This document shows positions 16,321 to 52,212 of a DNA stretch of 64,000 nt, piece by piece. Source of the DNA: Tenrec ecaudatus (taxonomy: Eukaryota > Chordata > Mammalia > Afrosoricida > Tenrecidae); assembly GCF_050624435.1 (NCBI RefSeq), contig NC_134542.1, forward strand, positions 14,196,997 through 14,260,996, in the 5' to 3' direction. Each line of letters begins with the position of its first letter. Within the stretch, counting starts at the first letter, position 1. The notes under the pieces are model-generated. The model was given only the letters and a program-made list of their open reading frames with translations, was not told the DNA's origin and did not search any database. A program made the translations under genes and the position numbers.

Positions 16321-17113
16321 GGACTCTTGTCATTGCCCAAGTAGACCTTAAACTCTTGGAGAATTGATTCTGATGTAGCCACAGTGCCTAGAATGCTAAC
16401 AGAGGTTTCATTGCTCAAGCTATTTTGATGAAGCAATGAAGAATTGAGTGAATGAGACAGTCTCTTCTGAGCTATCACAGCTTTGTTCACTCCAACCAGC
16501 TGAGCAGCTAACAAGCTCATTTTACGTCTTCATTTTCTGTCTGTGTAAGTCTCATTTTCTGTCTTCAGGCCAATGCCTTTCTTCTCTTGGGCATTGGATT
16601 TTCTATGGCTGTGCAGGGCAGTGAATAATTTAATGTGGCTCTACCAAGCACAGTCTCTGTACATTGCACTAAGTGACCTTTTCTTGAGGGTCTGGGTAGG
16701 AGAAGGTGGGAGAAGATACAGAGAAGATGCAGTTGTCAATGTTTGTGAAGAGGATTCACTGTGATTGCCATCTGGTGCCTACACAATAAGCCCTATCAAA
16801 AGAAGGAGGGAGATATCACTACTAGCGAGAACCAGGAGTTGAGCACATCCCCTGTATGCTGAGATCCCTGTGCAGGGAACCTCCTGATCTAGAAGACATC
16901 TTTAACATCTGAGGAGGGACAGAGGAACAGCCGCAGAAGAAGAACAACCGGGAGGCAGAGCATGAGACAGAGGGGTGGACTTCCCAGCCCACAGAGCAAG
17001 TAAAGCAGATTGCTTTAGGGTAGGAGGCTAGCTTATGGAACAGGGTGCCTCTGGTGACTTAATAGGGGGAGCTAGGGAAAGCTGGATGTACTGGCCCACG
17101 GAGCTGGAGTGAG
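16321..17113. other. Unassigned, possible outer part of an LTR B copy
   Basis: No gene seen. If the L1 at 17121 inserted into an LTR B, its left part would lie in this stretch; no sequence similarity proves that. Confidence 0.3.
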
Positions 17114-17120
17114 TGCCTTT

Positions 17121-17696
17121 TTAAATCATTTTATTGGGGGCTCATACAACTCTTATCACAATCCATTCATGCAGCCATTGTGTCAAGCACATTTGTACAT
17201 CTGTTACCATCATCATTCTCAAAACATTTTCTTTCTACTTGAGCCCTTGGCATCAGCTCCTCATTTTCCCCTCCCTCCTGCTTTCCCTCTCATGAACCCT
17301 TGATGATTTATAAAGTATTAGTATTTTGTTATATCTTACACTGTCTGATGTCTCCCTTTACTCACTTTTCTGTTGTCTATCCCCCAGGGAGGAGGTCATA
17401 TGTAGATCCTTATGATCGGTTCCCCCTTTTCACCCCACCCTCCCTTGACCCTCCTGGTATTGCCACTCTCACCACTGGTCCTGAAGGGATCATGTGCCCT
17501 GGATTCCCTGTGTTTCCAGTTCCTATCTGTACCAGTGTACATCCTCTGGTCTACCCAGATTTGTAAGGTAGAATTGGGATCATGATAGTAGGGGGGGAGG
17601 GGAAGCATTTAGGAACTAGAGGAAAGTTGTATGTTTCATCGTTGCTACTGTACCCTGACTGGCTCGTCTTCTTCCCGTGACCCTTCTGTAAGGGGA
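17121..17696 (-). mobile_element. 5'-truncated L1 (3' UTR only)
   Basis: Antisense terminus TCATTTTATTGGGGGCTCAT, then the TTGAGCCCTTGGCATCAG block, the CCCAGGGAGGAGGTCATATG block, and CCCTGACTGGCTCGTCTTC at the 5' truncation. A short duplication TGCCTTT (17114-17120, 17697-17703) may be the target site. Confidence 0.85.
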
Positions 17697-17703
17697 TGCC
17701 TTT

Positions 17704-18060
17704 GGACACTTATTAGCAGGCCCGAAAGAACTCTAACATGTCCCGACTAAACAACTATCTCCTGAACATTCCTCAACTGCGTTTTATCCTGTTAATTTCC
17801 CTAATAAACACTTCAATCGTGAATATTGTCTGCCAGCGCTGAGCAGCTATTGCAAGGAATGCGACCGTCTGGATGAACAAGAGAGAAGGTTGTGAGCGAA
17901 CAGGCTGCTTCCTGCTCAACAGAGACCCAAGGCCCAGGTCCTGGGGAGAAAGGGGTAGGCTCCGAGGCAGCAAGCAGAGCAGCACGTCACATTGAACCTC
18001 CCACCATATTTCTCCCCAGACAACTGCAAGAAGGGTAAGCACGCACAATTTTGTGAGCCA
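17704..18060 (+). mobile_element. LTR family B, probable copy 2
   Basis: TTTCCCTAATAAACACTTC, then ATCGTGAATATTGTCTGCC and GCTATTGCAAGGAATGCG parallel the copy at 13860-14330 in opposite orientation. The AATAAA is at about 17799. No internal retroviral genes follow. Confidence 0.45.
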
Positions 18061-18064
18061 TCAA

Positions 18065-18679
18065 ATCCACGAAGTTTCAAGAACAAATTAGAAAATGGGA
18101 AAAGTGATACTGAGGTTATTAGATAAGCCTCTGACTTGCCGTGTAAATCCCCGTGGCTTTAATATTGATTCATTTCACTGCAAGAGACAGTAATAACCTG
18201 AGCAGGCTCATGCAGCTAACAAAGACTGGTCCCCAGCAGGGAGACCGGGAAAACTCTAAATCCCCAAATGTCGATGCCTCTCATTACATATGTTTAGAAC
18301 AAAAGCCTTCTTTTCCTATTTAAGCACCTCAACTTCTTATGCCTTACCACCCAACTCAAAAATCTCAAAAGCGAAGAATCCGTATCATAAAAAAAGTATT
18401 GGGACAAAGTCATATTTCAGGAAATTGGTCCAAACGAAAATGAAAACATCAGTGAGTTTTACGGATGATGTTGCTGTTACATGAGTCTGAGCCCAAAGTG
18501 GTCCTCACACACCTGAACTGCATCCCTCTTTAACTTTCTCTGTGGGGAGACACCTTTTAGGATAAGCCATGCTTCCGGTTTCCTCTTTGTTACTGGAAAA
18601 AGCAAACAAATGAAGGTGGAATCTGATCGCCCATAACTTCAAAAGGCGTAAGGAAACTCAACTCCACAACAGCATTGCG
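18065..18679. other. Unassigned, no gene seen
   Basis: No repeat or exon recognised. This is the left flank of the next L1 insertion, whose target duplication starts at 18680. Confidence 0.4.
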
Positions 18680-18758
18680 CAAGGCCAATTTCTTTCTTTT
18701 TTAATCATTTTTTGGGGGCTCTTACAAATCTTAGGACAATCCAACATTCAGTTGTATT

Positions 18759-19120
18759 TTTTTAATCATTGTATTGGGGGCTCATACAATTCTTATCACA
18801 ATCCATACATCCGTCCATTGTGTCAAGCACGTATGTCCATTTGTTGCCATCATCATTCTCAAAACATTTGCCTTCCACTTGAGCCCTTAATATTGGCTCC
18901 TCATTTTTCCCTCTTCCTCCCCACTCCCCAGTCCCTCATGAACCCTTCATAATTCATAAATTATTATTATTATTTCATTATATGTTACACTGTCCGACGT
19001 CTCCCCCTGCCCTCCTCTCTGCTGTCCATCCCCCAAGGAGGAGGCCATACATAGAAACGGTTCCCCCTTTCCACCCCACATTCCCTCCACCCTGCAGGAA
19101 TCACCACTCTCCCCAGGACC
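18759..19120 (-). mobile_element. L1 3' end nested in an L1
   Basis: A second antisense L1 terminus (ATTGTATTGGGGGCTCATAC) begins inside the host L1. It is bracketed by a perfect 13-bp duplication ATTCAGTTGTATT (18746-18758 and 19121-19133). The host sequence resumes with AAGCAGCCCTGTACATATG right after the second copy. Confidence 0.92.
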
Positions 19121-19250
19121 ATTCAGTTGTATTAAGCAGCCCTGTACATATGTTGCCAGCAACATTTCTGAAACATTTTCTTTCTACTTGAGCTCTTGGT
19201 ATCAACTCCTCTTTTCCTCTCCCTCCCTCGTGAGTCCCCTGTCAATTATA

Positions 19251-20133
19251 CGGTAGATCCCGGTACTCGACCGCATCGGTACTGACATAATCGGATTCCG
19301 ACGCGAAATGCAGAGTCAATTTTGCATCGGAGCTCGAATGAAACCTCGGAAACCGACCCAATCCACGGGGTTTTTGTAGGCAAAAGCAGTTCGTGTTTCA
19401 GTCACTCGGTGTTAGTTGGCCTTGTTAATTCGAGTTGTTTAAACCTTTTGGAACTGCTTTCCAAGCATTTTGCTACGATTTTCTTAGTTTTTGTGGCTTT
19501 TTGTACTGGTTTTAGATTAAAAACAAAAACGTGGGTCCTAAGAGATTTTTGAAAAAAATCATAAGGAACAAGTTAACCATGTTATCGATATTGTTGATGA
19601 TAATTTAGTAAACCCTTTTAGAAACCAGTTAAGGAAACACCAGCAGCAGACCACGTTAGACAGATGTTTTTGTTGTTGTTTAGAGAAAGCCAGCCAGGTC
19701 CCAGTGGATAAAAGGGGGAAGAAAACAAAAACTTACTCCTGAAAAGCAGCTACCGGTTGATTTTATGAAAGAGAATTCTCCTTCCACACAGTGACTCTCT
19801 CTCCACATCTCCTCTCCACATCCCTGTCCGCAGATCCAGATCCTCATCCATCTCAAGGTACGGGCCACACTGTAGTTGTTGAAACTTTTTAAATGGTATG
19901 TTTCTTATTTAAATTAGACTATTTAACTCTGAACTTATTTACTTTGAAATTTCTGTGTAATGTTTTGTATAAAAAGGCAAGGTTAGGGTAGAAACTTGGT
20001 GGTCGAGAACAGATTAATCCGTTTTCAGTTTTTGTTTGTTTTTTTTGTGGGAAAAATTGATTCGGAAGTCGACTGCATCGCATCTTGACGCTCCTTCTAG
20101 AATGGATTAGTGTCTAAGTCCAGGGTTCTACTG
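19251..20133 (+). mobile_element. Tigger/pogo-like DNA transposon, internally deleted
   Basis: Inverted ends pair CGGTAGATCCCGGTACTCGAC (left) with CAGTAGAACCCTGGACTTAGAC (right, reverse complement), with further similarity inward (GATTCCGACG versus GACTTCCGAA). TATA on both outer sides (19247-19250, 20134-20137) fits TA-target use by Tc1/mariner/pogo elements. Near 19641 the sequence translates to QQQTTLDRC, and after a one-base shift TPEKQLPVDFMKE ending in a stop near 19790, which resembles the C-terminal tail of Tigger transposases. The catalytic and CENP-B-like parts are absent. It interrupts a lineage-specific L1, so it is younger than that L1. Confidence 0.75.
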
Positions 20134-20774
20134 TATATTATTATTGTTATTTTGTGTCTTACATTGTCTGTTGTCTCCCTTCACCCACATTTCTGTTATA
20201 TGTTCCCCTGGGGGGCGGGCTATATATCCAACCTTGTAATGGGTTCCCCCTTTCTCACCTTCTCCCCTCTACCCCCCATCATCCCCTACCCTATGATCTT
20301 GCTACAACCACTACTGTTCCAGAGGGTTTTATCTGTCCTAAATTCCATGCGTCGAGATCTCTTATCTGTACCAATGTGTGTACTCCAGTCTAGCCGGATT
20401 TATAAGGTAAAACTGGGTCATGGTAATCAGGGGAGGAAGCATTCAGGAACTAGAGGAATGATGTGTGTTATATCAGTGTTATACTGCACCCTGGCTGAAT
20501 TGTCCCTTCCTTGTAACCCTTCTGTTGGGGGCATGGGCTTTGGTTCTCTACTCTAACACCCCTCTTTTACATTGATATAAGTGTTTGGGTGTGAAGTTAA
20601 ACAAGCAGTCACGTAGCATGGAAGAAAATAAGCCTACATGGAAGAAGCATACCACCCTGTGTGATCATGAGGTGTCCATGGGATCAGGAATCAGGCATCA
20701 AAAGATTCAAGGCCAATTTCTGAGGCTTAGTTTAGACCTGCCTTACTAGCCAAGCTTCCTCCCAAACCTGAGAC

Positions 20775-21370
20775 CCATGTCCCTCCCACAGTGCTCTCGA
20801 CTTGTCAGCTGAGTGCAATACTCACTGCAATGGTCACACCGAAATAATAGCCAGTATTCTCAATCGTGGGCTTTATTAGGGAAGTGGACAGTTACTCAAT
20901 CTCAGGAAACAATTACACACCCAGGATTGCCTCTCCTAAGCTGTGCCTGAAGGCTAGTGTCTCTGGCCTTTGACCTCAGCCACAAAGCCTATTACCTCTG
21001 CCTTGTTTTGCCATGTTACAAAGCTCTCTCGGGGCTGCCAATAAGTGCTTAATGGGCACCCAGTTCTGGCTACCTGGGTCAGCAAGCCTAGCTTCTCTTA
21101 TAAGTGCCTGGAGGCATCCTGTTCCTCAAGGCAACCACCTCCTCAAAAAGAGCTTTGACTTGCTCTGTGGCCTGAGAAGTCCCCAGTTCTTCCTTACTGT
21201 ATATTATTCTGCCTTACTCTCTGGTTCTTGGTTCTGCAGCTACCACTCCTCTGCTGTTCCTCAAAGCTGTCTTATGGGTGGAGGGTCAATGCCCATAAAT
21301 CTCAGGGTCCAAGGCCAGGTTCCACCTCTGGCCCTTCTCTCTTGTTGGTAATGAGATTCCCCAATTCCTA
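20775..21370 (-). mobile_element. LTR family B, probable copy 3 (antisense)
   Basis: On the minus strand, CCCTAATAAAGCCCACGATT is followed by GAGAATACTGGCTATTATT, the same spatial plan as the other two family B pieces but more diverged. The plus-strand frame at 21013-21351 shows no domain and is treated as chance. Confidence 0.4.
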
Positions 21371-21539
21371 CTTTTGAGATGGCTCATTTGATACCCCACG
21401 AAATGACCATCAGACTTGAGTTAATCACAACTGAAGCCTATCAGTGTCTTCCCCCGCCATCTCTTACCCAGAATCATCAGGGAAAAGTCATTTGGTGGGA
21501 GTGGGAAGGACAATGGCTAGAAAAGCCGTATGAAAGAAA

Positions 21540-22918
21540 TCATTGCCCTGAAGTCAGGAACCCAAGATTCCACTATGCATTGGGCAAAACAGCAGCCTGA
21601 CACAAGCTCACCAAGAAAAGGAACAGTTCAGAGGTTGGAAATCAGCCCATTTAAAAAGAAGATACATACCAACTACTTTTAAGACTAATGTGTGTCCGGC
21701 CCAGGCCATAGTATTTTCAGTTGCCTCATAGGCATGTGGCAGTCAGACATTGAACAAGGAAGACTAAAGAAGAACCAGTACATTTGAATGGCAAAAAAAT
21801 ATTGAAAGCACTGGATGCATAAGCAAATGTGGTGAAGAAAGCTAATGGTGCCCAGCTATCGAAAGATATAGCATCCAAGGTCTTAAAGGCTTGAAGGTAA
21901 ACAAGTGGCCATCTAGCTCAGAAGCAACAAGGCCCAAGTGGAAGAAAGGGTTAGGGATAAGGCATCATCAGATAAAAAAAATCATATCATTGTGAATGAG
22001 GGGGAGTGCAGAGTGGAGCCCCAAAGCCCATTGGTAGGCATTTGGACATCCCCTTATGGAGGGTTGCGGGAAGGAGACGAGCCAGTCAGGGTGCAGTGAT
22101 GAAACACAGAGTGCAACGATGAAACATACAACTTTCCTCTAGTTCCTAAATGCTGCCCCCTCCCCCCCACTATCATTATCCCAATCGTACCTTACAAAGC
22201 AGGCTAGACCAGAGGATGTACATTGGTACAGTTAGCAACTGGAAACACAGGTAATCCAGGGCGGATGATCCCTTCAGGACCAGTGGTGAGAGTGGCCGTA
22301 CTGGGAGCGTGGAGGAAGGGTAGGGTGGAAAAGGGGAACCGCTTACAAGGATCTACATGTAACCTCCTCCCTAGGGGACAACAGAAAAGTGGGTGAAGGG
22401 AGACGTCGGACAATGTAAGATATGACAAAATAATAAATTATGAATTATCAAGGGTTCATGAGGGATGGGGAGCAGGGAGGGAGGGGGTAAAAATGAGGAG
22501 CTGATGCCAGGGGCTTAAGTGGAAAGCAAATATTTTGAGATTGATGAGTGCCATGAATATACAAATGTGCTGTACACAATGTATGTATGTATGGATTGTG
22601 ATAAGAGTTGTATGAGCCCCTAATAAAATGATTTTTTAAAAAGACTCAAGGATGGCAAGATTGTGTCTTACACATTTTGAACATATTGTCCGGACAGACC
22701 AGTCCCTGGGGAAAGACATCATGCTTGGTAAAGCAGAGGGGCAGTGAGAAAGAGGAAGGCTCTCAGTGACATGGATTGCTACAGTGGCTATAACAATGGG
22801 TTCCGGCAAAGGAACAATGGTGAAAAATGACACAGGAACAAGCAGTTTGGTTCTGCTGTGCAGAGGGTGGCTCTGAGCCTAAACCAACTCTATGGGACTT
22901 GACAACAACAACAACTAC
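21540..22918 (+). mobile_element. RTE LINE 3' half, split by L1
   Basis: The left part (21540-21808) carries GCATTGGGCAAAACAGCAGC, GCCATAGTATTTTCAGTTGC and GAACAAGGAAGACTAAAGAAG. The right part (22645-22918) carries CAAGGATGGCAAGATTGTGTC, AAGACATCATGCTTGGTAAAG, AAAGAGGAAGGCTCTC and a final (CAACAA)n. About 60 bp of RTE expected between the parts is missing, lost at or after the L1 insertion. Confidence 0.8.
21815..22640 (+). mobile_element. 5'-truncated L1 3' UTR, inside RTE
   Basis: Starts about GCATAAGCAAATGTGGTG, passes AAAGGCTTGAAGGTAAAC, AAATCATATCATTGTGAATG, and CCAGTCAGGGTGCAG, and ends GCCCCTAATAAAATGATTTT plus A-tail. No clean target duplication found, consistent with a small target deletion. 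Confidence 0.85.
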
Positions 22919-23076
22919 CCACTTTCATGACTCGTTGTTTAAGGTTTGGTGGTGAAAAGGGGCTATTTGTCTGTTAAGGGGATCGGTGTGGCTCCCTCAC
23001 TAAGGATAAGTAGCTATATTCTCTGCCACTTACTAGAGGAAAATCAAAGAGGGTGGACGCTAGCATACTGATACTT

Positions 23077-25455
23077 TTTAAAAATCATTTTATTGGGGGC
23101 TCGTACGACTCATCACAATCCATACAACCATCCATTGTGTCAAACACGTTTGTATATTTATTGCCATCATCATTTTCAAACCATTTTCTTTCTACTTGAG
23201 TCCTTTGTATCAGCTTCTCATTTATTTCCCCTCCCTCCATTCCCCACCTCCCTCCCTCGTGAACCCTTGATAATTTATAAATTATTATTTTTCATGTCTT
23301 AAACTGACCGATGTCTCCCTTTACCCACTTATCTGTTGTCCATCCCCCTGGGAGGGGGTTTTAGATAGATCATTGTGATCTGTTCCCCTTTCTCCCCCCA
23401 ACTTCGCTTTACCCTCCTGGTATGGCTACTCTCAATATTGGTCCTGAAGGGGTTATCTGTCCTGGATTCCCTGTATTTCCGGCTCTTATCTGTACCCGTC
23501 CATGTACACACACTGGTCTAGCCAGATTTGTAGGGTAGAATTTGGGTCATGATAACATGGGGAGGGGGTTCAGGGGAGGAAGCATTAAAGAACTAGAGAA
23601 AAGTTGTGTGTTTCATCAGTGCTCTACTGCATCCTGACTGGCTTGTCTCTTCCTTGTGACCCTTCTATTAGGAGATGTCCAGTTGCCTACAGATGGGTTT
23701 TGGGTCTCCACTCCGCAATCCCCCTCATTCACAATGATATGATTTTTTGTTCTGGGTCTTTGATGCCTGATCACTGATCCTATCGACACCTAATGATCAC
23801 ACAGGCTGGTGTGTTTTTTCCATGTGGGCTTTTTTGCTTCCAGATAGATGGATGCCTATTTATTTTCAAGCCTTTAAGACCCCAGATGCTATATATTTTG
23901 ATAGCTAGGCACCGTCAGCTCTCTTCACCACATTTGCTTTGTCTTCAGCGATCTTGTCGGGAAGGTGAGCATCATGGAATGCCAGGTTATTAGAACAAAG
24001 TTGTTTGAGCTGGGCCCAGACCAAGGCAGCCCCTTGTACCAGCTTCTTGAAAAGACAAATGACCTGGCTTCAAAGCACCTGCCTTCAGTGTTTCACAGAG
24101 CTTACCTCCCTGGACCGAACACAGTACCCCTCTCCCTAACATTGTTTCCTAGGAACCACATGATTTACTAACAAGATGTCACCTGTCCCAAAACTTGCAA
24201 TCACAGCACAAAGAACTTCCCTTCCCCTTACCGGCTCATATGCCTTTAAGCTCACACCCTATATAAGTTCCACTGCCTCACTTCCAGGTGCGACTTCCCT
24301 GACCTAACCCCTTGGGTCACGGAACCCACCTGGGGACTCAATATGCCCCCATCTCTTTCTCTGCCCTCCCTTTCTGCCCGGGACTTCTTTCCCTGCCTCA
24401 ATTAAATCTCAACTTCATATTCTGGGCTAAATTCTATCTCTGTTCCGCACCTCCATCTCTAACCTTTCAAAAGTGTTCTTGCGTTATGAGAGTTCTTGAG
24501 TAGAGGCCCAATGTCCATATGCTACCTTGATACTTAACATATAAATATATATACATAGATCTATTTCCCTATCATTATATTTAAGTATATTTACATATGT
24601 ACATGCCTGTATTTAAACCTCTATAAATGCCCTTTGCCTCCTAGTTCTTTCCTTTATTTCCCTTTACTTTCCTCCTGTCCCACTGTCATGTTCAGCCTTC
24701 ATTTGGGTTTCAGTAATTCCTCTTGGTTACATTGCCCTTCATCAAGCAGAGGACAACACTGACACTACAGCTCAGGGAGAGGGACATGTCTGGAGAGCAC
24801 TCAGAGTACGCAGGAGAAAATGAAGGGGGAGGGAGAGAGAGTGGAGCACAACCTGGCCCACCAAGCCCCAAGGAGGACAATGTTCCTGCTTAGAGCCCCC
24901 AATGCACAGAGAGGACCATAGGACTGGCCCCACCACAAGACACGGTGTCCCTCACTGAACCATAGTGCTATGGGGACAACATTGGAGACACAGTGTGGGA
25001 ATTGTGCCCTATCAGACCCCACCACACCGAGGCAAAACACTAAAGGAGTGTAACAGAACAACAAGGGGAGAAGAGCAATGAAATGCCCTAGGAATACCAA
25101 AAATAGACTGTGGGACCAGGACATGGCACCCCATCAGACTCGACCAGAAAACATTTGTAAAAGTCAACAGATCTTGGACTATTTATAGGCTTTATTTGGT
25201 CACTGGTTTGTTGTTGTTGTTTTATTTTATTTGTTGCTTTGCTTTGCTCCGTCTTATTTTTGTGCATATCAGCTCTGCATGTCTATCTAGATAAGATAGA
25301 AAGACTAAACAATCTGGAGGGGAAAACAACAGGACCGATGGTTCTGGGGGGTCATGGGAGAGGAGAAAGCGGTGGAAAGGAAGTGGGGACAAGGAAACAA
25401 CACGTGATCTAAAATCAATGGTGAGGAGGTGTAGGAGGCTTGGTAGGGCTGAATC
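23077..25455 (-). mobile_element. L1 3' UTR insertion with 5' inversion, holding a solo LTR
   Basis: Antisense L1 3' UTR runs from TCATTTTATTGGGGGCTCGT to about 24745. From about 24750 to 25455 the sequence is sense L1 3' UTR (CCTGGCCCACCAAGCCCC, GAGACACAGTGTGGGAATTG, ATCTAGATAAGATAG), comparable with 52290-52870. This inverted arrangement is typical of twin priming. A 9-bp duplication CTGATACTT (23068-23076 and 25456-25464) flanks the whole unit. The solo LTR at 24002-24469 interrupts the antisense part. Confidence 0.88.
24002..24469 (+). mobile_element. Solo LTR, 468 bp, inside L1
   Basis: Begins TGTTTGAGCTGG and ends CCTTTCA, the TG...CA termini of integrated LTRs, with a 5-bp duplication AAAGT on each side (23997-24001 and 24470-24474). 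Removing it restores the L1 reading AGAACAAAGTGTTCTTG. A TATATAAG box lies at about 24260 and an ATTAAA signal at 24401, spaced as U3-R-U5 would be. No viral genes are present. The 5-bp duplication fits ERVL or some other ERV classes; I do not recognise the family. Confidence 0.88.
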
Positions 25456-44699: not shown

Positions 44700-45065
44700 C
44701 GCGTGGTCCTTAGACATCTCCAGTTCCATAAAAGCATATTGAGTTACGGAGTCTGTTGAAACATCTTTGGGGTTAGATCTACCTTCCTCATGCCGTGACC
44801 CTTTAGTACAGTTTCTCATGTTGTGGGGATCCCCCAACCATAAAATCATTTTCATTGCTACTTCATAACTGTCATTTTGCTACTGTTATGAATCAAGCAA
44901 CCCCTGTGAAAGGGTTGTTCGACCCCCAAAGGGGTCACAACCCACAGGTTGAGAACCACTGGTTTAGATCCAAGCCCTGCCATGCATAGTTCTGTCAGGT
45001 CACCTTGGACAAAGTGCCCACCCTCTCAGAAACCCCAGTCTGCTCACCGATCAAAGAGGGCAGCT
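44700..45065 (+). repeat. MIR split by a SPIN transposon
   Basis: Joining the flanks of the SPIN copy gives GGGGTTAGATCCAAGCCCTGCC, then TTCTGTCAGGTCACCTTGGAC, ACCCTCTCAGAAACCCCAG, which follows the MIR order (…GGTTCAAATCC..CTCTGCC…TGTGACCTTGGGCAA…CTCAGTTT…). The left part before 44771 is weak. Confidence 0.5.
44779..44961 (-). mobile_element. SPIN-like non-autonomous hAT transposon, copy 2
   Basis: Right end GGTTGAGAACCACTG, with CGACCCCCAAAGGGGTCACA inside it. The left end (CTACCTTCCTCATGCCG) has lost part of the terminal repeat. It aligns with copy 1 along its whole length in reverse. An 8-bp duplication with one mismatch, GGTTAGAT (44771-44778) and GTTTAGAT (44962-44969), has the hAT size. 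Confidence 0.88.
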
Positions 45066-47221: not shown

Positions 47222-47345
47222 AAACCAAACTCACTGCCGTCGAGTCGATTCTGATGACAGGAACCTTAAATAGGGTTTCTAAGGCTGTTACACTTTATGG
47301 GAGCAGATGGCTGCATCTTCCTCATGAAAGAACTCCAGTACATAT
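47222..47345 (-). repeat. AfroSINE tail half, antisense
   Basis: CCAAACCAAACTCACTGCC then GTCGAGTCGATTCTGATGAC and TTTATGGGAGCAGATGGCTG: a clear antisense tail and body. Confidence 0.75.
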
Positions 47346-50982: not shown

Positions 50983-51650
50983 GGTGTCGGGCATCAAAGA
51001 AAAAAAATCATATCATTGTGAATGAAGGGGAGTGTAGATCGGGGACCCAAGGCTCATCTGTAGGCAACTGGACATCCCTTTGCAAAGTGGTTGGGGGGAG
51101 GAGACAAGTTAGTCAGGGTGCAATGTAGCAACGATGAAACACACAACTTTCCTCTAGTTCTTAAATACTTCCTCCCCCTGCTATCATGATCCCAATTCTA
51201 CCTTACAAATCTGGCTAGAACAGAGGATGTACACTGGTATAGATAGGAAGTGGGAATCCAGGGCAGATGATCCCTTCAGGATCAGGGGTGAGAGTAGTGA
51301 TATCGGGAGGGTGGAAGGTGGGGTAGAAAGGGGGAACCAATTACAAGGATCTACATATAACCTCCTCCCTGGGGGGGGGTGGACAACATAAAAGTGGGTA
51401 AAGGGAGATGTTGGACAGTGTAAGATATAACAAAATAATAATAATTTATAAGTTATCAAGTGTTCATGAGGGAGGGGAGAATCGGGAGGGAGGGGGAAAA
51501 TGAGGAGCTGATACCAAGGGCTCAAGTAGAAAGCAAATGTTTTGAGAATGATGAGAGCAACAAATATACAAATGTGCTTGACACAGTGGATGTATATATG
51601 GATTGTAATAAGAGTTGTAAGAGACCCCAATAAAATGATTAAAAACAAAC
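50983..51650 (+). mobile_element. 5'-truncated L1 3' UTR nested in the long L1
   Basis: Begins GGTGTCGGGCATCAAAG and ends GAGACCCCAATAAAATGATT plus A-tail. Flanks AAACTCTGGTACACA (50968-50982) and AAACTCGGGTACATA (51651-51665) match at 13 of 15. ORF2 resumes with ATACAATGGAGTACCATGC. Confidence 0.9.
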
Positions 51651-52212
51651 AAACTCGGGTACATACATACAATGGAGTACCATGCATCCTTAAAAAGAAG
51701 TGGTGAACGCATGAAGCACATCATCACATGGGAAGAACTGGAGGACATTATGTTAAGCAAAGTAAGCCAAGCACAAAAAGACAAGTACAACATGGTCCAC
51801 TGAGGTAAGCTTAAAAACCACAAGGGGCACCGGGGAACAGTCACTAAATGCATAAAGTTCCAGCACTCTGGTAGGCGTCAGACCCAACCCATGGATACAT
51901 ATGACAGCTAACTAAAAAGGAGGTGGGGGGGGAGGGAATGTAGATAGTGGGGGAATGAGTCACTAACCCACCCATGGGCAGGGTATTGTTTATGTCACCA
52001 CAGGAAAGGGGGAGAGGAACCAGACCTCAACCTGGTAGCCTCACCTTGAAGGAAACATACTGGCATGAAGCATTGAACTAACAGAGAGGTCTGCGGGCCC
52101 CGGCCCCAACCTCAGCTACGTCAACCCCCTCCCCGGAAGATTGCACTACAGAGGCCAGCACTGAAGATGTAACCTGGGAAGAGTGGCCGGTCTGCCCAGA
52201 CCACATGGGAGC

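Follow-up and report, generated by a model that had tools for sequence, protein, structure and literature searches.

Insertion and host L1

The window, by which we mean the whole stretch of 64,000 nucleotides of Tenrec ecaudatus DNA that was analyzed, contains a Tigger-type transposon that interrupts an L1 element (Table 1). The unit is a discrete insertion with exactly the coordinates first assigned to it, and inverted ends with TATA flanking each side are present as initially reported, reading CGGTAGATCCCGG at the left and, in reverse complement, CAGTAGAACCCTGG at the right. With the borders set by the L1, the 13-bp ends agree at 10 of 13 positions, equalled by 1 of 20000 random window pairs. 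Because inverted-end matches of such quality are not unique among the 6852 TA pairs in 18701-20700, the borders are fixed by the interruption of the L1. When the flanks are joined with a single TA they align without gaps to the L1 copies at 17160-17600 and 51290-51660 (the other 4 of 6 L1 copies have small indels near the joined site), while joining with two TAs opens a further gap of 2 bp against each of the 6 copies, so that the target duplication is best read as TA in this AT-rich stretch.

It is in the L1 that the preliminary description has to be corrected. The perfect target duplication that it had assigned to the host L1 is a 14-bp duplication belonging to a second, nested L1 fragment and, far from being young, the host L1 is the most diverged of 13 fragments compared, with a K2P distance of 0.33 as against 0.14-0.28 for the others (rough values, each fragment having been measured against a consensus of the window's other L1 fragments, n = 13). 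Since this is an old L1 with a younger L1 nested inside, the transposon need only postdate the old one. No second copy of the element was found within the window (best other match, E 0.047), and Rfam gave no match in 17000-24000 at gathering scores. At window position 47235 there is an AfroSINE-like tail which, like the Echinops-like gene described below, agrees with a tenrec-like host among the afrotherians.

Table 1. Features of the transposon insertion and its surroundings (window positions; a dot marks features without strand)
Feature	Position	Strand	Remark
Host L1, left piece	18697..18744	-	
CATTCAGTTGTATT, first target-duplication copy of nested L1	18745..18758	.	
Second L1 fragment, nested inside host L1	18759..19119	-	
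CATTCAGTTGTATT, second target-duplication copy of nested L1	19120..19133	.	
Host L1, middle piece, transposon-interrupted	19134..19248	-	
Left TA, target duplication	19249..19250	.	Empty-site comparison; left-border TA in 21/37 copies
Tigger-type transposon copy, non-autonomous, 883 bp	19251..20133	+	Oriented as parent transposase; from host-genome matches, 40-row alignment borders and 37-copy consensus
Left inverted end	19251..19263	+	Consensus CAGTAGAACCCCGG; window copy one base shorter
Left subterminal region, CTCGAC-type repeats	19251..19370	.	Candidate transposase binding sites
TTTTAG, just 5' of former start codon	19510..19515	+	Counterpart of intact parent's TTTTTAG
Remnant of transposase codons 1-5	19531..19545	+	MGPKK in consensus; start codon changed to GTG in window copy
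Internal deletion junction	19543..19547	+	Transposase shortened by about 1.5 kb; in the parent, consensus 1-294 and 292-876 lie apart (L058, L059, L078, L079; L080 nearly)
Remnant of transposase C-terminal tail, with frameshift and stop	19546..19794	+	QQQTTLDR..., PEKQLPVDFM...
Element 3' non-coding part	19795..20119	+	
Right subterminal region, same CTCGAC motif class	20014..20133	.	
Right inverted end	20120..20133	-	Consensus CAGTAGAACCCCGG on minus strand
Right TA, target duplication	20134..20135	.	Empty-site comparison; right-border TA in 24/37 copies
Host L1, continuation past transposon	20136..20420	-	

Element structure and full-length parents

In a search of the host genome with the 883-bp unit the best 40 of 2266 candidates were scored, the window copy included; the other 39 are 78-83% identical to it, mostly over nearly the whole length, and in the 40-row alignment similarity falls off at the element borders. 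Four loci, L022, L023, L046 and L047, have a common left flank (149-150 of 150 bases), reflecting segmental or assembly duplication, and the last three were set aside, leaving 37 copies chosen by their likeness to the window copy. Their consensus is 876 bp long with perfect 14-bp inverted ends CAGTAGAACCCCGG, similarity being weaker beyond; the terminal similarity, whose disappearance from a multi-copy consensus had been named as grounds for refutation, thus rises to 14 of 14. Inverted ends of not more than 40 bp and a TA target duplication, the latter seen here by empty-site comparison, are both properties of Tigger elements, and 13 of the 37 copies retain TA at both borders. The consensus contains 7 CTCGAC motifs, counted on both strands, of which 6 lie inside the terminal 2 × 120 bp, a number reached by 0 of 2000 shuffles; the seventh, at 754-759, straddles the 120-bp line and there are none deeper inside. 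These motifs are candidate transposase sites.

The consensus also has an open frame, MGPKK EFFEKNHHDKELVNHVIDIVDDNLVNPFRKQLRKRQQQTTLDRFF...KTPEKQLPVDFMEGDSPSKQ, and in this frame MGPKK...KQLPVDFMEGDSPSKQ represents the two ends of a transposase from which the middle has been deleted. Taken by themselves the protein scraps of the window copy found no match in Pfam, PDB (first scrap only) or the protein database, and a coding frame derived from the window copy alone was rejected, its longest stop-free frame of 88 falling within the 54-116 range of 30 shuffles. The scraps become recognizable once they are compared with the 37-copy consensus and the intact parent, and they are indeed, as had been proposed, the remains of a Tigger transposase tail.

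The parents were identified in a DDE_1 search of the host genome (best 150 of 2539 candidates scored). Two loci, L058 and L059, carry an intact transposase of 597 codons, with Gly in place of the third catalytic Asp, between stretches corresponding to consensus 1-294 and 292-876 (81%), so that the intact gene which had been suggested as an object of search does exist in the same genome. The same consensus flanks, at 75-88%, enclose three decayed full-length relics, L078-L080. Because the full-length loci carry both parts of the consensus as flanks, the window element amounts to the parent minus about 1.5 kb. It retains only the two ends of the transposase and, with both element ends, no complete transposase and a full-length parent in the same genome, is an internal-deletion (MITE-like) derivative. 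The protein of L059 contains CENP-B_N, HTH_Tnp_Tc5 and DDE_1 domains above Pfam cut-offs, in keeping with the Tigger type originally proposed, and a motif search places the second and third catalytic positions 36 residues apart in Macrobrachium rosenbergii and likewise in the host, where the third place is Gly, a spacing within the DD29-36D range of Tigger. L058 and L059 lie on two contigs and are identical over 3567 bp, so that the locus was either assembled twice or duplicated very recently.

A second DDE_1 family (L063-L077) is found in the host genome as well, 14 of 14 further loci being 87-92% alike to L066 over 1.3-2.3 kb, with a likeness of about 22% to the best listed Tigger protein. 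Its motifs look Passer/POGK-like. Passer is reported from nine afrotherian species (PMC9976928).

Relatives of the transposase in prawns

The top database match of the host frame is a TIGD1-like protein, isoform X2, of Echinops telfairi (P0001), which has an N-terminal KRAB box. After Echinops the best-scoring proteins, among the best 120 of 681 matches, are TIGD1-like proteins of the freshwater prawns Macrobrachium rosenbergii (P0003) and M. nipponense (P0002), which are 75.7 and 77.6% identical to the host frame as against 61-62% for three bats; by the identities listed for these 120 matches, no protein beyond Echinops and the two prawns exceeds 60%. The two tenrec-like and the two prawn proteins are 76-79% identical over 527-588 residues. 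P0002 continues for >100 residues past the PEKQL of the tail.

In a 34-row tree, built from the host protein and 33 of the 120 listed proteins that were hand-picked for spread across named taxa, with a few unnamed ones, and covering near relatives only, many annotated TIGD1-like, the two prawn rows join the two tenrec-like ones in a single clade with support of 100/100 and a stem of 0.36. A second M. rosenbergii protein, crayfish, crab, Palaemon (another shrimp) and bats fall elsewhere. Forcing the tenrec rows together with the three nearest bats, out of five bat rows, costs 220.8 log-likelihood units and is rejected (p-AU 9.3e-5), the tested clade having been chosen after both hit list and tree had been seen. 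The transposon tree conflicts with the host tree, as horizontal transfer would lead one to expect. Contamination is unlikely, given that the prawn sequences come from contigs of 48.7 and 141 Mb and that the tenrec gene is preceded by host exons. Viral contigs yielded no confirmed relative of the tail or of the 597-aa protein and no match to the end pattern.

On this protein phylogeny the parent probably arrived by horizontal transfer, and of the two sources that had been envisaged for the element, surviving or newly arrived, it is the second that fits better, the transposase grouping with prawns and not with the nearest bats. The competing explanation dispenses with transfer and supposes an ancient, widespread Tigger lineage that has persisted in tenrecs and Macrobrachium alone, or else unsampled hosts in between. 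It draws on the patchy distribution of Tigger, on protein matches that comprise the best 120 of 681, and on a prawn-tenrec likeness judged at the protein level. Yet it has to accommodate a transposase that is so much closer to prawns than to three bats, a fully supported four-row clade with rejection of the bat grouping, and the placement elsewhere in the tree of both Palaemon and a second protein of M. rosenbergii itself, and we consider it unlikely. Tigger transfers between arthropods and mammals have been reported in sections of PMC9219625, the main text of which contains neither the word Macrobrachium nor the word KRAB.

A candidate KRAB-Tigger gene

The Echinops protein and the host frame are identical at 511 of 585 aligned residues (87.4%). 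Some 2-5 kb upstream of the host copy lie a KRAB exon and two linker exons that match Echinops residues 2-185 in the same order, with 91, 76 and 72% identity; an exon containing the KRAB start codon was not recovered. The exons have GT/AG borders at which the codons are put back together just as in the Echinops protein, PCQ/IKNMGPKK, and at the last junction, CAG/ATTAAAAACATG (slashes mark the junctions), the 3' splice site appears to be the TTTTTAG of the element's own leader.

At the third catalytic place the host and Echinops proteins both read QPMGQ (Gly), where M. rosenbergii, L078 and L079 have D, L080 has E and M. nipponense has V. The same motif in 114 listed proteins (from the best 120 of 681) has D in 99 and another residue in 15, Gly being found also in P0005 (Molossus, a bat) and P0057; since 15 of 114 proteins lack D, including two others with Gly, its loss alone is no proof of domestication. 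Changes private to L059 are distributed over codon positions 1/2/3 as 27/23/49 (p 0.0026), a bias that suggests purifying selection, although part of the third-position excess may date from the time when L059 was an active element. The corresponding counts in the relics are near equal (30/31/31, 65/58/57 and 45/40/43), and, relative to the open frame of L059, deletions whose length is no multiple of three number 11, 6 and 8 in the relics, insertions being uncounted. For the tail of L059 against the consensus we obtain dN 0.092, dS 0.347 and dN/dS 0.27 (81 codons, evolution before capture included). Taken together, the features of the host copy agree with those of a domesticated gene, some of the conservation possibly predating capture, and it seems that fusion to KRAB made a host gene of one parent copy.

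It might be argued instead that the intact copy was never domesticated, having been lucky or having inserted late, and that the KRAB fusion is an artefact of the Echinops annotation. The Echinops protein is, after all, a named isoform X2, by form a prediction; conservation of the frame could in part predate the insertion; and L059 retains its left TA and recognizable ends. This account is improbable in our view, for the host DNA has the same open KRAB and linker exons with the same splice junctions, the Gly is common to host and Echinops, and neither the open frame nor the codon-position bias of L059 is found in the three relics. We return, then, to capture of a parent copy by a KRAB gene which, with horizontal transfer, is the best reading of the sequences.

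Copy number and age of the family

The further copies for which a search of the genome had been suggested number in the hundreds. Left ends with up to 3 mismatches occur 927 times genome-wide versus 17 for a reversed control pattern, the 927 including parents and partial copies and missing gapped ends such as that of the window copy. The 37 copies have a median K2P distance of 0.112, or 0.087 without CpG sites (range 0.069-0.152). For 20 copies picked by their ends, drawn from 23 exact left-end matches with ~1 kb fetched for each, non-CpG values are 0.061-0.107 with a median of 0.084 (0.111 with CpG); 11 of the 20 match the consensus unbroken from 1 to 868-876 and 9 are shorter or broken. Because these give a similar median, the age value is no product of having selected copies that resemble the window copy. 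At the tenrec substitution rate of 2.9173e-9 per site and year given in a section of PMC4079192, the medians without and with CpG would correspond roughly to 29 and 38 My, though the rate of the host may differ. No very young copies were seen among the 37 and 20 sampled. Late Tigger activity, as claimed in the preliminary description, is therefore upheld in a relative sense, copies lying 6-11% from their consensus where the L1 fragments nearby lie 14-33% from theirs, but the activity dates to roughly 29-38 My ago and is not current. The same comparison bears on whether this could be an old eutherian Tigger common to placental orders that happens to lie in an L1. In mammals, according to sections of PMC9219625, Tigger families occur widely and are for the most part fossil, but with copies so much closer to their consensus than the L1 fragments are to theirs, and with Echinops the only afrotherian visible among the best 120 of 681 protein matches (names partly missing), such an origin is very unlikely.

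The window copy is an ordinary family member, slightly older than the median (non-CpG K2P 0.109 versus 0.087). It is rich in CpG, with an observed/expected ratio of 0.86 versus 0.29 for the whole window and 30 CpG in all, a count reached in 2 of 1263 sliding windows, each of which lies over the unit, and of the 37 consensus CpGs it has retained 22, the highest number among the 37 copies. That such richness would mark a very young copy we dismiss almost entirely, given the above-median non-CpG distance and a larger CpG share in 2 of the 20 end-picked copies (L085, 20/30; L086, 16/24). As a guide to age, the CpG richness of one copy alone can be deceptive. A related proposal from CpG content, that the window copy is younger than SPIN, was rejected, the family alignment placing the copy above the median age. 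A SPIN-like shortened hAT copy at about 44780-44960 departs from a SPIN consensus at 14 of 181 sites and keeps 2 of 9 CpGs. Local lack of methylation is a possible cause of CpG retention by the window copy (19251-19400).

Proposed history

The anatomy of the element, its copies and its parents are direct observations, and they can be joined with the findings on the transposase into the following account. A Tigger of ~2.4 kb with a three-domain transposase would have been active in the tenrec-like lineage, having probably come by horizontal transfer; its closest known non-tenrec relatives are in Macrobrachium prawns. A derivative that lost ~1.5 kb of coding sequence and kept both ends with their CTCGAC motifs would have been moved in trans, by cut-and-paste into TA sites, by the transposase of the parent, and may have reached hundreds of copies roughly 29-38 My ago. 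One copy of the parent would then have been taken up as the terminal exon of a KRAB gene, through splicing at the TTTTTAG of the element; exons, borders, frame and Gly are all seen in the DNA, and from these we infer transcription and domestication of a captured copy in which the third catalytic Asp was lost while the frame stayed open. The predicted KRAB-Tigger protein should bind the ends of dispersed copies, the window copy included, and might recruit KRAB-dependent silencing to them.

Some observations count against this explanation. Both TAs survive in no more than 13 of 37 copies. The 3' non-coding part of L059 (2641-2959) has a K2P distance of 0.208 from the family consensus versus 0.122 for the 5' part, and its divergence exceeds what is expected for the same burst. 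Nevertheless, that the window element is a non-autonomous Tigger with a prawn-related parent, one copy of which was captured by a KRAB gene, is an account of whose overall correctness we are quite confident. We put forward much more tentatively, as somewhat more doubtful than not, the fuller proposal that a Tigger crossed between the prawn and tenrec lineages, spread short copies and then yielded a KRAB-transposase repressor whose sites, the window element among them, were already scattered through the genome. If right, a phylum-crossing transposon and a KRAB capture would be combined in one lineage, and a single genome would hold the parent, its deleted copies, the gene with its altered catalytic site and the candidate targets.

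Relation to known systems

Excerpts of the open literature on tenrec Tigger, pogo and KRAB contain neither this Tigger family nor its prawn affinity nor the KRAB gene, and the gene may already stand in the fusion survey of 2021; among the literature matches listed for the end and tail letters, none concerns animal transposon families. Tigger elements, their deletion derivatives and KRAB-transposase fusions are all of known kinds. As described in parts of PMC7386202 and PMC9219625, Tigger (pogo superfamily) has, like the family of the window, a TA duplication, short inverted ends, CENP-B_N, HTH_Tnp_Tc5 and DDE_1 domains and internally deleted derivatives of a parent that is here 2.4 kb. Unlike a typical Tigger, the window family represents a late burst in a tenrec-like lineage with its nearest relatives in prawns. 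Sections of PMC9219625 count Tigger in one afrotherian species and name the manatee elsewhere.

The Macrobrachium TIGD1-like proteins belong to the same subfamily as the host protein, and that of M. nipponense has the same tail (QQQTTLDR, PEKQL); unlike the host protein they have no KRAB by Pfam, and M. rosenbergii keeps QPMDQ and is without the tail. Echinops P0001, in turn, joins KRAB to this same transposase, agrees with the host in splice junctions and in the Gly, and differs from the host protein in sequence and in its last residues, which diverge as if frameshifted. POGK likewise combines KRAB with a pogo-superfamily transposase, although according to parts of PMC7386202 it derives from Passer in an ancestor of mammals, whereas the host gene derives from Tigger and is, as far as seen, lineage-specific. 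The nearest model is KRABINER, one of the host-transposase fusions of Cosby et al. 2021, in which, according to sections of PMC8616336, KRAB is spliced to a full-length transposase whose relatives have left many cognate sites, the arrangement that we propose for the host gene. KRABINER involves a mariner in a bat and the host gene, for which binding and repression are predictions, a Tigger in a tenrec; if our reading is right, the latter would be an independent parallel to the former.
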